The notes below the pieces were generated by a model. That model worked only from the letters and a program-made list of their open reading frames with translations. It ran no database searches and had not been told where the DNA came from. A DNA stretch of 28,116 nucleotides. It comes from a virus. Position 1 is the stretch's first letter. Each line of letters begins with the position of its first letter. Positions 2,239 to 12,450 of the stretch are shown piece by piece. The stretch covers positions 1 through 28,116 of the IMG/VR virus record IMGVR_UViG_3300032220_001039. One strand, given 5' to 3'. The translations under genes and the position numbers were made by a program.

Positions 2239-3039
2239 TTAAATTGGTAATTTCACTTTACTTAACATTTGATTTGAGACATGAGTATATATTTCAGTAG
2301 TTTTAACATTGCTATGTCCTGCAATTTTCTGGATGATTCTCAGATCACAACCTAATTCTAAAAGATTTGTGAAACAAGAATGTCGTAACTGATGAATATG
2401 ATATTGTTCTCCCAAATATTTTTTAACAATCTTATTACAACTATTTGAACTATATTGTAATGAATTTTGTCCGTTAAACAAGTATTCTTTTGGTTTATAT
2501 TGTATGAAATAATTTCTTAATAATTCTAATACAGTTTGTGATAGAGGTACAATCCGGTCCTTTCTACCTTTTGCGTTTTTAATATATATTACCATTCTTT
2601 TAGAGTCAATATCCTCAATTTTTAGATTTATAACCTCAGACACCCTTAACCCAACAGAATATGTTATTGTAAGTATTGTTTTGTGTTTTAGGTTTTCAAT
2701 TTTTGATAATTGTTCTTTGATGTATTCACCATCAATAACAACAGGTAGTTTCTTTTCCGATTTTGGTCTTTTGAAACTTACTTTGTCGTATTTCTTTTCC
2801 AAACCAAATTTATATAAAAACCTAATGGAGTTTATAACCTGGTTTTGTTGTGACACAGACTTAAAACCATACTGATCCAAATAGGACTGGAAATCATCGG
2901 ATTTTAGTCTGGTTGGTGGTATTTTAGTATTATCCAAAAATTGTTTTATATAAAAAAGATAGGACTTTATTGTCCTATCTGAATAGTTTAAATACTTCAA
3001 TTTTTGATTACAAATTTCGTAATAATTTGTCTTATTCAT
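2239..3039 (-). CDS. Tyrosine recombinase, Xer-like, next to attC-like array
   Basis: This 266-residue site-specific recombinase breaks and rejoins DNA through a tyrosine. A SAM-like N-terminal core-binding domain spans about 1-90 and the catalytic domain about 100-266. All six catalytic positions are visible: R132 (GLRVSEV), K157 (AKGRKDR), H216 and R219 (HQLRHS), H242 (GHSNVKTTEIYTHV) and Y251. The segment between K157 and H216 is short, so the extra helical insert that marks true integron integrases (IntI) appears absent; it is closer to XerC/XerD or phage integrases. It lies at the left end of four attC-like sites and reads away from them, the position intI holds in an integron. No clear promoter was found upstream. 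Confidence 0.9.
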   Translation of the reverse strand: MNKTNYYEICNQKLKYLNYSDRTIKSYLFYIKQFLDNTKIPPTRLKSDDFQSYLDQYGFKSVSQQNQVINSIRFLYKFGLEKKYDKVSFKRPKSEKKLPVVIDGEYIKEQLSKIENLKHKTILTITYSVGLRVSEVINLKIEDIDSKRMVIYIKNAKGRKDRIVPLSQTVLELLRNYFIQYKPKEYLFNGQNSLQYSSNSCNKIVKKYLGEQYHIHQLRHSCFTNLLELGCDLRIIQKIAGHSNVKTTEIYTHVSNQMLSKVKLPI

Positions 3040-3041
3040 CT

Positions 3042-3098
3042 TTAAAACGTTGTTTTATAGAGGGTTTTTGGGTAGGTGTTGATATAATCTAGTTATAA
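3042..3098 (+). other. Candidate attI-like region between recombinase and first cassette
   Basis: Positions 3042-3058 repeat the loop and right-arm sequence of the first attC-like site (3341-3357) with one mismatch in 17 nt, as half a site. Further right, GTTATAA at 3092-3098 resembles the GTT boxes that end the four attC-like sites and is the only good candidate for the left edge of the first cassette. The position, between recombinase and first cassette, is where attI would be. There is no direct proof that it recombines. Confidence 0.4.
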
Positions 3099-3104
3099 GT
3101 AATA

Positions 3105-3278
3105 TTATTTTTGTTTTGAGTTTTTTAATTCCTCAATCAAAAGTTTTTCAACTTGCTTTCTAATTTTCTTTGGTATTACAATTTCTGGTGTACCTTCTTC
3201 AACAGTTATCGCAGTTTTGATTTGAAAAACTTCGCACTCAATTGTTTTTGTTTCTAATTTTAAGTTTATCTCTTTCAT
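3105..3278 (-). CDS. Cassette 1 gene: small hypothetical protein, 57 aa
   Basis: The frame runs from ATG at 3278 (MKEINLKLETKTIEC) to TAA at 3105 and encodes a charged protein whose last third (IPKKIRKQVEKLLIEELKN) is probably a helix. I know of no family. It occupies the whole of cassette 1, between GTTATAA at 3092 and the attC-like site at 3319. It runs toward the recombinase, opposite to the usual direction of a cassette gene. A possible promoter lies between it and the attC-like site: TATTTTTG at 3303-3310 with TTTG 17 nt further upstream inside the L'' arm. That spacing is short, so this is weak. Confidence 0.6.
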   Translation of the reverse strand: MKEINLKLETKTIECEVFQIKTAITVEEGTPEIVIPKKIRKQVEKLLIEELKNSKQK

Positions 3279-3318
3279 AATTTATTTTTTTATAAGGTAA
3301 AACAAAAATAATACATAC

Positions 3319-3372
3319 TTATAACAACAAATAAAACACATTAAAACGATGTTTTATTTGCAACCGTTATGT
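3319..3372 (+). repeat. attC-like site 1 (54 bp)
   Basis: The order on the plus strand is R'' TTATAAC (3319-3325), spacer AA, L'' arm CAAATAAAACA (3328-3338), an 11-nt loop CATTAAAACGA, L' arm TGTTTTATTTG (3350-3360, a perfect 11-bp reverse complement), spacer CAACC, and R' GTTATGT (3366-3372). This is the attC plan: RYYYAAC and GTT boxes as outer arms, an unpaired spacer, then an inner stem. The expected cut is between G3366 and T3367. Confidence 0.8.
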
Positions 3373-3384
3373 GTAATTTATTAT

Positions 3385-3636
3385 TTAAACCAAATCTCGT
3401 TTAACTTGAATCTCTTTCAAAGTTATCGTTCTTGTATCTTTGATGTGTTCTATCAATTGGTCTAAATTTTTACTCACATATTCATCAAATTGAGTTTCAT
3501 TCTCGTAATCAACACCACCATCAAATTGAACATCAAATCCATTTTCACGTAAAAAATTTTTCAACAGTAAAGTTAAACGAGATTTTCCTGAATTAACTTC
3601 ACCTGATACACTAATAATTAAATTTTTCTTTTCCAT
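3385..3636 (-). CDS. Cassette 2 gene: small P-loop NTP-binding protein, 83 aa
   Basis: The N-terminus carries a Walker A motif, GEVNSGKS (residues 12-19), directly after a beta strand (NLIISVS), as in P-loop NTPases and kinases. At 83 residues it holds only the first part of such a fold: strand, P-loop, helix, then FDVQFDGGVDYENE, which could be a lid or switch segment. No Walker B is evident. It may be a minimal or degenerate NTP-binding protein. It fills cassette 2 and reads toward the recombinase. A strong Bacteroidetes promoter inside the loop of the second attC-like site points at it. Confidence 0.7.
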   Translation of the reverse strand: MEKKNLIISVSGEVNSGKSRLTLLLKNFLRENGFDVQFDGGVDYENETQFDEYVSKNLDQLIEHIKDTRTITLKEIQVKRDLV

Positions 3637-3670
3637 TTTATTTTTGTTTTTAAATTAAATAATAAACTAC

Positions 3671-3763
3671 ACATAACAAGGTGTATATGTAATTTTTTTA
3701 CAAAGATACAAATAAGTTTTCACATTTCCAAACAAAAACTACATATACACCCAACCGTTATAT
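3671..3763 (+). repeat. attC-like site 2 (93 bp), with a promoter in its loop
   Basis: R'' ACATAAC (3671-3677), spacer AA, L'' GGTGTATATGTA (3680-3691), a 48-nt variable loop, L' TACATATACACC (3740-3751, a perfect 12-bp partner), spacer CAACC (3752-3756), R' GTTATAT (3757-3763). The boxes and spacer sizes match site 1 while the arm sequence differs completely, which is the covariation expected of attC sites. The expected cut is after G3757. Confidence 0.8.
3701..3732 (-). promoter_or_regulatory. Bacteroidetes-type promoter inside attC-like site 2
   Basis: On the minus strand TTTG (3729-3732) and TATCTTTG (3701-3708) are exactly 20 nt apart. The promoter lies wholly within the variable loop of the second attC-like site and faces the P-loop gene of cassette 2. 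The expected transcript would begin near 3695 and carry the L'' and R'' boxes in a leader of about 60 nt. Confidence 0.6.
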
Positions 3764-3764
3764 G

Positions 3765-3893
3765 CTATTTTATTTCCTCACACCAAACCCAACAATCCTC
3801 TTTTAGCTTATATCCTTCTAAGTCATACCAACCAAGTCCATCTTTATACTCTGCTAATACTTTGAATCCGTCTTTATGTGTTAATTCAAACAT
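3765..3893 (-). CDS. Cassette 3 gene: small hypothetical protein, 42 aa
   Basis: ATG at 3893 (MFELTHKDGFKVLAEYKDG) to TAG at 3765. The product is acidic and rich in aromatic residues, ending in DCWVWCEEIK, with two nearby Cys. No family is recognised. It is the only credible frame in cassette 3 and ends 2 nt after the R' box of the second attC-like site. I saw no good promoter between it and attC-like site 3. Confidence 0.5.
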   Translation of the reverse strand: MFELTHKDGFKVLAEYKDGLGWYDLEGYKLKEDCWVWCEEIK

Positions 3894-3914
3894 AATTATA
3901 AAATTTAAAACAGC

Positions 3915-4045
3915 CTATAACATACGCTATACAAAAGTGGGGCTGTGTGCCAAATCTGTACAGTTGTGCATCTAATTTGCTTTTATACGGCAAGCAAGGG
4001 TTGCTCATCTTTATCCCCACCTTCGTATAGCGTCAGCCGTTATAC
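3915..4045 (+). repeat. attC-like site 3 (131 bp)
   Basis: R'' CTATAAC (3915-3921), spacer AT, L'' ACGCTATAC (3924-3932), then an extended imperfect stem (AAAAGTGGGG at 3933-3942 facing CCCCACCTTC at 4015-4024) around a long variable loop, L' GTATAGCGT (4025-4033, perfect partner), spacer CAGCC, R' GTTATAC (4039-4045). It is the longest of the four and the one most like large environmental attC sites. R' provides the stop codon of the next gene. Confidence 0.8.
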
Positions 4046-4252
4046 ACAATATTTTTTTTCACCCTCATCCCAACCAGTACCACATAAATCTTTATGTTGA
4101 TATTGAAGTAACCCTTTATTCACAACAGGGTTCTGTATTTTAAGATAAACATTTTCATCTACTTCGTGAACTTTTGAAACTCTTACATAAACATTATTAG
4201 TGTCACCAGTATAATCATATACTAAACAATGCACTTTATTTCTATTATCCAT
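4040..4252 (-). CDS. Cassette 4 gene: hypothetical protein, 70 aa
   Basis: A 70-residue protein, probably beta-rich (KVHCLVYDYTGDTNNVYVRV, then ENVYLKIQNPVV), with three Cys; the C-terminal third is LCGTGWDEGEKKYCV. No family is recognised. Its TAA stop is read from the TTA of the R' box GTTATAC of attC-like site 3, so the coding frame ends exactly at the predicted cassette edge. It has its own promoter within the same cassette (TATATTTG at 4266-4273). Confidence 0.65.
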   Translation of the reverse strand: MDNRNKVHCLVYDYTGDTNNVYVRVSKVHEVDENVYLKIQNPVVNKGLLQYQHKDLCGTGWDEGEKKYCV

Positions 4253-4265
4253 ATTTACTTTTTCA

Positions 4266-4297
4266 CAAATATACTAATTTATTTCTAATTTATCAAC
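4266..4297 (-). promoter_or_regulatory. Promoter of the cassette 4 gene (GTTG-N20-TATATTTG)
   Basis: On the minus strand GTTG (4294-4297) and TATATTTG (4266-4273) are 20 nt apart, and the ATG at 4252 follows after 13 nt. It lies between the gene and attC-like site 4, so the cassette would carry its own expression signal. Confidence 0.6.
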
Positions 4298-4316
4298 CAT
4301 CCCACAAAAATACTGG

Positions 4317-4370
4317 TTATAACAAATGATAAACAACATTAAAACGATTGTTTATCATCAGACGTTAGAT
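4317..4370 (+). repeat. attC-like site 4 (54 bp)
   Basis: R'' TTATAAC (4317-4323), spacer AA, L'' ATGATAAACAA (4326-4336), loop CATTAAAACGA (4337-4347, identical to the loop of site 1), L' TTGTTTATCAT (4348-4358, perfect partner), spacer CAGAC, R' GTTAGAT (4364-4370). GTTAGAT fits the classical GTTRRRY consensus exactly. The expected cut is after G4364. Confidence 0.8.
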
Positions 4371-4682
4371 AAAATAAAATTTATCAACCTGGATTCTTTT
4401 TTCCATATAGTTTTTGTTTGACTTGTATGTTACTCTCAACTCAGTTCTATTTCTAAAGAATGTAACATCCCAACCGTCAACAGATTGACCTTTTGTCATA
4501 GGTGCATAACCGATTAAAGTGTGAGCTTCATTAGTTTCAAAGTAAAAACCATTACCAAAGTTTGCCATTTTTTTGATAGTATATTCGCCATCAATAGTAG
4601 AATTAACACCTTTGATCACAAGTTTTGTAAAACTTTTGTGTTTGTCTTGTCTAAAGTCCTCTATCGTCATTTCAAAATCCAT
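4365..4682 (-). CDS. Hypothetical protein abutting the last attC-like site, 105 aa
   Basis: I start it at 4682 (MDFEMTIEDFRQDKHKSF) because a TATATTTG promoter element ends 4 nt upstream; an open frame continues to 4796 but overlaps the plus-strand gene. The protein appears beta-rich (NGFYFETNEAHTLIGY, then VTFFRNRTELRVTYK). Its TAA stop comes from the TTA of the R' box GTTAGAT, just as in cassette 4. No attC-like site follows on its right, so it is either the chromosomal neighbour or a cassette that has lost its site. No family is recognised. Confidence 0.65.
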   Translation of the reverse strand: MDFEMTIEDFRQDKHKSFTKLVIKGVNSTIDGEYTIKKMANFGNGFYFETNEAHTLIGYAPMTKGQSVDGWDVTFFRNRTELRVTYKSNKNYMEKRIQVDKFYFI

Positions 4683-4686
4683 AGAA

Positions 4687-4694
4687 CAAATATA
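4687..4694 (-). promoter_or_regulatory. Promoter -7 element TATATTTG, 4 nt before ATG
   Basis: TATATTTG on the minus strand lies exactly 4 nt before the ATG at 4682. The -33 region at N20 is degenerate (ATATG). It lies in the divergent gap before the plus-strand tail-fibre genes. Confidence 0.5.
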
Positions 4695-11649: not shown

Positions 11650-12450
11650 TTATTCTTTTATTTTATTTTCTATTAAGTCATTAACTTCATCTTGATGATA
11701 CCATTCACTGCCTGACATCATAACTTTAACACCTGTACCTGTTTCAATAATATCATCCATATATCTATTTGAATGGTTCGCAAATGGATGTAACCAACTA
11801 ATTACTTTAACCCCATTTTTAATTGTGTCTTTAACATTTATATCACCCTCAAAATAATGCGGATAACTTTCTTTTACACCATTTTGAATGGTGTCATCTA
11901 CTTCATAATAATTGTCTCCAGCGCCCGAAAATGTATTTTTAACACCATTTTGTATAACGTTTTGAATATTATTTTTACTTGGGGGTGGAAATGACCCAAA
12001 ATGACTCAGGGTGTGTTTCACCCCATTTTGAATGGTATCTTCAACATCTGTGTTTACACAATTTGTTCCTTGAATGGTGTGTTTCACCCCATTTTGAATG
12101 GTATCTTCAACCAATTTCAAAGATTCACCACCATACGACTGACTATTTTTCACACCATTTTGAATGGTATTCTCAACCTCAATACCCAAAAATCTTGATT
12201 CAAACCATTTTTTAATAATGTCTTTTGACTCAACACAATCTATACTAAGTAAATTTAATTCACTTTGGAAGGTGTTGTAATTAAACCAAAGAATTTTTTC
12301 TTTTGTAAATTCTAAAACCCATCTTCTCTCTTCTGTGAATATTAACCAAGTTGATGATTCAGAAATGTATTTATCAGCGCCTTGTATCATTGTATCAAAC
12401 ATACCAAAAATCAAGTTTTTTATTTTTTGATCTTTATTCATTTTTACCAT
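11650..12450 (-). CDS. Protein with tandem DTIQNGVK repeats, 266 aa
   Basis: Residues 1-95 form a compact N-terminal domain (STWLIFTEERRWVLEFTKE, LWFNYNTFQSE) seen, to my knowledge, in phage proteins of unknown role. From about residue 95 a motif close to V(E/D)DTIQNGVK occurs six times, separated by variable 12-18-residue linkers, then twice in degenerate form (DDIIETGTGVK, NDLIENKIK). The motif could form short amphipathic helices. At the DNA level the copies are near-identical, so copy number can change by recombination. The start overlaps the upstream phosphoesterase by 7 nt. The function is unknown; variable linkers on constant motifs suggest a binding or display role. Confidence 0.75.
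   Translation of the reverse strand: MVKMNKDQKIKNLIFGMFDTMIQGADKYISESSTWLIFTEERRWVLEFTKEKILWFNYNTFQSELNLLSIDCVESKDIIKKWFESRFLGIEVENTIQNGVKNSQSYGGESLKLVEDTIQNGVKHTIQGTNCVNTDVEDTIQNGVKHTLSHFGSFPPPSKNNIQNVIQNGVKNTFSGAGDNYYEVDDTIQNGVKESYPHYFEGDINVKDTIKNGVKVISWLHPFANHSNRYMDDIIETGTGVKVMMSGSEWYHQDEVNDLIENKIKE
11809..12178 (-). repeat. Coding tandem repeat, period about 65 nt
   Basis: Six copies of a 26-35-nt unit centred on CCATTTTGAATGGT (plus-strand reading) begin at about 11809, 11876, 11941, 12011, 12077 and 12150. The copies at 12011-12045 and 12077-12111 are identical over 35 nt and lie exactly 66 nt apart. They encode the DTIQNGVK motif; the linkers between them are not repeated. Confidence 0.85.

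Follow-up and report, generated by a model that had tools for sequence, protein, structure and literature searches.

The closest described relatives of the system analyzed here are the integrons of bacteria and archaea, class 1 and Vibrio integrons among them, with their integrase IntI and their recombination sites attI and attC. An insertion specific to IntI is held to be necessary for the recognition of attC, and textbook integron cassettes are mostly promoterless, relying on a promoter beside attI. The Xer enzymes, which are also relevant for the comparison below, act in chromosome dimer resolution at the dif site. Two elements of our argument are already known. Promoters carried by cassettes occur in ordinary integrons, namely, in cmlA1, in toxin-antitoxin cassettes, and in an array of V. 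rotiferianus (PMC8876359). Furthermore, the parts of Qi et al. 2023 on which we draw describe phages, some of them virulent, that carry attC sites along with cassettes, DNA methyltransferases among the latter; phages with an integrase are described there with Vibrio, class 1, or Shewanella integrons, and virulent phages with attC clusters that lack an integrase (PMC9892861).

We analyzed a stretch of viral DNA of 28,116 nucleotides (IMG/VR record IMGVR_UViG_3300032220_001039, positions 1 to 28,116; referred to as the window here). The host is probably a member of the Bacteroidota, judging from the promoter type and from the related recombinases found in Bacteroidota genomes. Upstream of a recombinase gene, the window contains four hairpins of the form NNNTAACA...stem-loop-stem...CGTTA. 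The features of the region are as follows (G/TTA denotes a crossover between G and TTA; L numbers denote related loci).

2239 to 3039, minus strand: tyrosine recombinase of 266 amino acids, IntI/XerA-like, without the IntI-specific insertion (Pfam PF00589, 1.6e-36, and profiles)
3085 to 3100, plus strand: attI-like crossover, G 3092 / TT 3093 (comparison with L001)
3093 to 3366: cassette 1 (G/TTA crossovers at both ends)
3105 to 3278, minus strand: gene of cassette 1, 57 amino acids
3322 to 3366, plus strand: attC-like site 1, short class, loop CATTAAAACGA (stem covariation of short sites)
3367 to 3757: cassette 2, a gene with its own attC-like site 2 (co-travel test and G/TTA breakpoints)
3385 to 3636, minus strand: gene of cassette 2, P-loop protein of 83 amino acids with SGEVNSGKS (open reading frame list), stop 18 nt from the cassette start
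3637 to 3696, minus strand: predicted 5' leader of gene 2, 60 nt (from the promoter position), with only one arm of the attC hairpin inside
3674 to 3757, plus strand: attC-like site 2, arms 3680 to 3697 and 3734 to 3751, loop 3698 to 3733 (predicted folding)
3701 to 3732, minus strand: predicted promoter of the Bacteroidota sigma-A type, TTTG-N20-TATCTTTG, inside the loop of site 2
3758 to 4039: cassette 3
3765 to 3893, minus strand: gene of cassette 3, 42 amino acids
3918 to 4039: attC-like site 3, in cassette 3
4040 to 4364: cassette 4 (recurs in L023)
4040 to 4252, minus strand: gene of cassette 4, 70 amino acids
4266 to 4296, minus strand: another promoter-like site, TTG-N20-TATATTTG, located within the cassette 4 body and 13 nt upstream of the ATG of the gene
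4320 to 4364: attC-like site 4, a short site, in cassette 4
4365 to 4682, minus strand: phage gene that adjoins the array on its right (border exactly at GTTA by comparison with L001), with TATATTTG 4 nt before its ATG (4687 to 4694)

Like integrons, this locus has a recombinase gene beside an attI-like crossover, followed by tandem cassettes of small genes. The borders can be placed exactly by comparison with L001, a 99.8% identical relative (99% identical to the window phage in the integrase): the two sequences match up to AGTTAT, with GTTA at 3092, and again from the GTTA at 4364, whereas the arrays enclosed by these two points differ. Identity between cassettes shared by other arrays likewise starts and stops exactly at G/TTA, so that homologous-cassette breakpoints and both L001 borders show the integron pattern of recombination at G/TT with one attC per cassette. 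Among pairs of arrays that share a cassette body, 11 had the right-hand hairpin (the one with the CGTTA end) in common and differed in the left one, versus 2 with the reverse outcome. Cassette 4, for example, recurs with 98% identity in the different array of L023, where it has the right hairpin of the window but not the left one. Co-travel and breakpoints together define cassette 2 as 3367 to 3757, including both site 2 and the promoter, in agreement with the initial annotation, which had described the site as attC-like, the array as cassette-like, and site 2 with its promoter as part of the cassette of the P-loop gene. Since the hairpin that is kept lies next to the start codon, promoter and gene move together; the opposite polarity, with the hairpin at the 3' end of the minus-strand gene, was ruled out by the same two lines of evidence. 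The gene of cassette 4 also occurs in L001, but its 5' end and its hairpin are not those of the window, which looks like a swap of the hairpin end inside a cassette.

This arrangement is reversed relative to integrons, where attC lies at the 3' end of the gene. Of 357 cassettes, 346 have their open reading frame in antisense to the top strand of attC. The stop codon lies ∼14 nt from the cassette start, and the hairpin is located at the 5' end of the gene. In ∼10% of cassettes the stop codon lies within the GTTA box itself; in the window, the box at 4040 to 4042 reads TAA on the minus strand, the stop of the cassette 4 gene. At the other end, the longest open reading frame begins inside the hairpin in 116 of 346 cassettes (e.g., L005, L008, and L085). 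In such cassettes the recombination site may encode the N terminus of the protein, and some cases may reflect an upstream overextension of the frame.

We used a profile search of IMG/VR, in which some contigs recur across searches, and took the best 80 of 214 loci with relatives of the recombinase, many of these 80 being located on contigs of 100 to 360 kb. A site finder applied to these best 80 loci retrieved 334 sites, compared with 3 in shuffled sequence, a search that understates the range of sites since it demanded TAACA and CGTTA. All 334 were on the strand opposite the integrase and none on the integrase strand, and a site was located 5' of the integrase in 58 of the 62 loci with enough flank. 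For a single short site type, at least 119 stretches matched. In the alignment of 28 short sites, 99% of the cells at paired positions form pairs, and stem covariation was 0.84 versus 0.21 after shuffling (0 of 500 shuffles as high), so that the hairpins combine a conserved structure with a variable sequence, as the attC sites of integrons do. The apical loop CATTAAAACGA of the short sites (3322 to 3366 and 4320 to 4364 in the window) is nearly invariant and the stems vary freely, some of this invariance being built in because the loop was the pattern of the first collection scan. In a class of 83 to 88 nt, the loop is also conserved but has a different sequence, AACTTTCAAATTA (minus strand).

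The ends of the cassettes show a further integron property, the complementarity of the R'' box to the start of its own cassette. All 7 bases are complementary in 280 of 364 cassettes, compared with 36 for shuffled partners. The complementarity reaches ∼15 nt and is interrupted at position 11 by a nearly constant mismatch, which is an A opposite a C in 269 of 364 cassettes and becomes a G.T wobble on the bottom strand; the end inverted repeat of ∼15 nt with A.C at position 11 is found in cassettes of L002 to L213. A matching A follows AAC at position 15 of the inner stem, again a G.T wobble on the bottom strand. These positions possibly replace the extrahelical bases of classical attC sites, and the strand bias appears to come from them. 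According to fold prediction, which addresses folding and not recombination, the bottom strand is more stable in 349 of 361 cases, and in 318 of 361 the circular form is favored over that in the array. For site 2, the predicted energies are −14.1 kcal/mol (z = −5.1) for the bottom strand and −10.8 kcal/mol (z = −3.5) for the top strand. Stable hairpins between small codirectional genes could also be terminators or other RNA structures that have nothing to do with recombination. However, the G/TTA breakpoints between related arrays, the complementarity of a cassette's own ends in the circle form, and the greater stability of the bottom strand all speak against this explanation, which we consider very improbable. 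Neither the array nor the window as a whole contained an RNA family according to Rfam scans, and a search for tRNA and tmRNA genes found none.

In three respects the locus departs from integrons. Although GTT is invariant in the set, the core GTTRRRY fits only 32 of 364 cassettes, the usual core being GTTA[T/G]NN with a GTTA that the finder required, so that its conservation is partly built in. The recombinase matches recomb_XerA_Arch (1e-54) better than the integron integrase profile TIGR02249 (2e-45, below the cutoff), leaving model positions 179 to 260 of the latter unmatched; recomb_XerA_Arch is its best profile match and 4a8e its best match among solved structures. It is 28% identical to IntI1 over the shared parts and lacks the IntI-specific insertion, i.e., the additional domain (I2 region); the insertions of IntI1 are absent from all aligned phage enzymes. 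Thus, the system works like an integron but departs from integrons in two defining features (IntI insertion and GTTRRRY) and in a usual one, the location of attC at the gene's 3' end, and we refer to the system as integron-like rather than as an integron in the strict sense. It shares with integrons the structure-conserved hairpins, the cut in a GTT box, and the site polarity relative to the integrase, and it differs in the ∼15-nt outer stem complementarity with its fixed A.C. XerA/XerC-like recombinases of archaea and Bacteroidota are the closest match by profile and structure, but the enzyme of the window adjoins an array of hairpins that are conserved in structure and variable in sequence. 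Fifteen bacterial genomes with related recombinases contained no match to the short-site pattern. L216, a Bacteroidales MAG, contains a related recombinase with 5 attC-like sites and L256 (Niabella) one with 2; these bacterial contigs may be prophages, or the system may have a cellular relative in them.

The 36-nt loop of site 2 (3698 to 3733) encloses the whole of TTTG-N20-TATCTTTG, which on the minus strand of 3701 to 3732 reads TTTGGAAATGTGAAAACTTATTTGTATCTTTG and faces the P-loop gene of cassette 2, as the initial annotation had stated. The housekeeping promoter consensus of Bacteroidota consists of TTTG at about −33 and TAnnTTTG at −7 (PMC7366714, PMC9723704), and both boxes are present here at suitable spacing. 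Given that the −7 box spans −12 to −5 relative to the start (PMC9723704), RNA is predicted to start at ∼3696, close to the 3695 proposed earlier, which would give gene 2 a leader of 60 nt. In an AT-rich window, a single match of this kind could be chance. The strict motif has 4 matches in the window, versus ∼1.5 expected on both strands, and although all four are on the minus strand, that is, on the coding strand just upstream of genes, such numbers mean that one match proves nothing. For that reason, we compared site 2 with the hairpins of other cassettes.

The comparison set comprised 364 distinct cassettes from relatives located on dozens of IMG/VR contigs. A strict promoter inside the hairpin on the strand facing the gene was found in 13 of them, versus 1.3 expected (maximum of 4 in 100 shuffles), although these 13 form two homologous groups and are not 13 independent events; the strand not facing the gene had 0, versus 1.2 expected. 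A relaxed form overlapping the hairpin edge added 8 more (1.3 expected). Eight of the 13 are loops homologous to site 2, located in several stem sequences and mostly followed by unrelated or different proteins. Their spacing is always 20, with a pairwise identity of 1.0 for the −33 TTTG and of 0.95 for the −7 box, while the distal 12 nt of the spacer have diverged (0.61). The other five belong to a differently built class, in which the −7 box is part of the hairpin arm next to R''. This comparison makes the observation at site 2 convincing as a predicted promoter.

Two further explanations have to be weighed against these data. The match could be a promoter look-alike in AT-rich DNA, with expression of the cassette genes depending on phage promoters to the right of the array (e.g., 4687 to 4694), which would read through to give a polycistronic RNA reaching the integrase. 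The low number of strict matches in the window and the lack of a consensus promoter in most cassettes fit this view, as do the common direction of all cassette genes and the integrase and the TATATTTG box of the right-flank gene. It does not account for the excess inside hairpins, which is tenfold and confined to the strand facing the gene, or for eight loops that keep spacing and boxes while the distal spacer diverges, and we regard it as unlikely. The conserved loop could instead serve recombination, its sequence being dictated by a protein or by the fold, with the promoter likeness incidental. Other site classes do have conserved loops without promoter boxes (CATTAAAACGA in the short sites, AACTTTCAAATTA in the 83- to 88-nt class), and in the promoter loops the proximal half of the spacer (GAAAT-TC) is conserved as well, which could point to another cause of loop conservation. 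Still, the conserved positions comprise both boxes at the right spacing, and the same boxes recur in the second hairpin class with the −7 box in a stem arm. We consider an incidental likeness unlikely as well.

We therefore favor, with a probability of about three in four, a reading in which the phage encodes an integron-like system, cassette 2 recombines through the hairpin of site 2, and the loop of this hairpin acts as a functional promoter of the host type for the gene of the same cassette. This reading builds on the array, the exact breakpoints, the stem covariation, the linkage of gene and hairpin, the reversed orientation, and the conserved boxes, all visible at the sequence level; from these we infer single-strand recombination by the recombinase, transcription from the site 2 promoter, and expression independent of position. 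The recombinase would act on the folded bottom strand, cutting and joining at G/TTA, with each cassette carrying one hairpin at the 5' end of its reversed gene. The attC-like loop, being free to vary, could hold a promoter with the stem undisturbed. This promoter would stay intact through excision and insertion and, because the hairpin is at the 5' end of the reversed gene, together with the gene. RNA starting at ∼3696, in the near arm, would have a 60-nt leader without the full hairpin, in contrast to read-through RNA, which would contain it. Cassettes without a promoter of their own would need read-through from the right flank.

The proposal that such cassettes are expressed wherever they land follows for cassette 2 if its promoter works, as promoter and gene belong to the same cassette. 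It is not a general property of the array, given that a recognizable promoter in or overlapping the hairpin is present in only ∼4 to 6% of cassettes and absent from ∼94%. The contrast drawn in the initial annotation with cassettes that depend on a common promoter needs to be reworded: since the genes point toward the integrase, a classical Pc or any promoter at attI could not express them, and the alternative to a cassette's own promoter would be read-through from the right flank. The link of the site 2 promoter to the P-loop gene is shown only in the window itself, because in L112 the hairpin with the promoter precedes a different gene, and the homologue of the P-loop protein comes second. 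For this protein, Pfam gives only weak AAA-type matches.

As with the cassette-borne promoters of integrons (PMC8876359), a promoter that moves with its cassette would make expression independent of position and, if it works, also of the host integron. The cmlA1 promoter, however, is located in the 5' untranslated region of its cassette (PMC8876359), whereas the predicted phage promoter lies in a hairpin loop, that of the recombination site which belongs to the gene itself and is located at its 5' end. The phage integrons and attC clusters of PMC9892861 resemble the window system in combining attC sites with cassettes that include DNA methyltransferases; an I2-less integrase, reversed genes, and loop promoters are not among the features described in the parts of that study considered here. 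Our search of the open-access literature, preprints excluded, found no promoter in a gene's own attC loop, no reversed cassettes, and no such recombinase, which is weak evidence of novelty. It is possible, although we would put it forward only tentatively, that Bacteroidota phages have a separate class of integrons, defined by an IntI-like recombinase without I2, strand choice through fixed A.C (bottom-strand G.T) positions, reversed genes, and a loop that doubles as a portable promoter. If so, folding of the site for recombination and transcription would be mutually exclusive states of the same piece of DNA. A recombinase without the part held necessary for attC recognition would also make the origin of structure-specific recombination directly testable. 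The cassette cargo of the wider system includes DNA methyltransferases and RNA-repair enzymes, which are plausibly counterdefense genes, and the wider system looks like a gene-capture platform owned by phages.

A second promoter had been proposed for cassette 4 at 4266 to 4297. TTG-N20-TATATTTG is indeed present at 4266 to 4296, but base 4297 gives GTTG instead of TTTG, and this site sits in the body of the cassette and not in a loop. The window phage does appear to use the TAnnTTTG box elsewhere too. In 6 of 58 open reading frames of the window, TAnnTTTG is located exactly 4 nt before the ATG (2200, 4682, 10628, 11628, 13139, and 13753, minus strand). The same spacing peaks in related viral loci, with 14 cases versus ∼2 at neighboring spacings, suggesting leaderless phage transcripts, given that the box lies at −12 to −5. 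Elsewhere in the window, the minus strand of 11650 to 12450 encodes a 266-amino-acid protein with a repeated DTIQNGVK-like motif, which weakly matches an uncharacterized phage family only.
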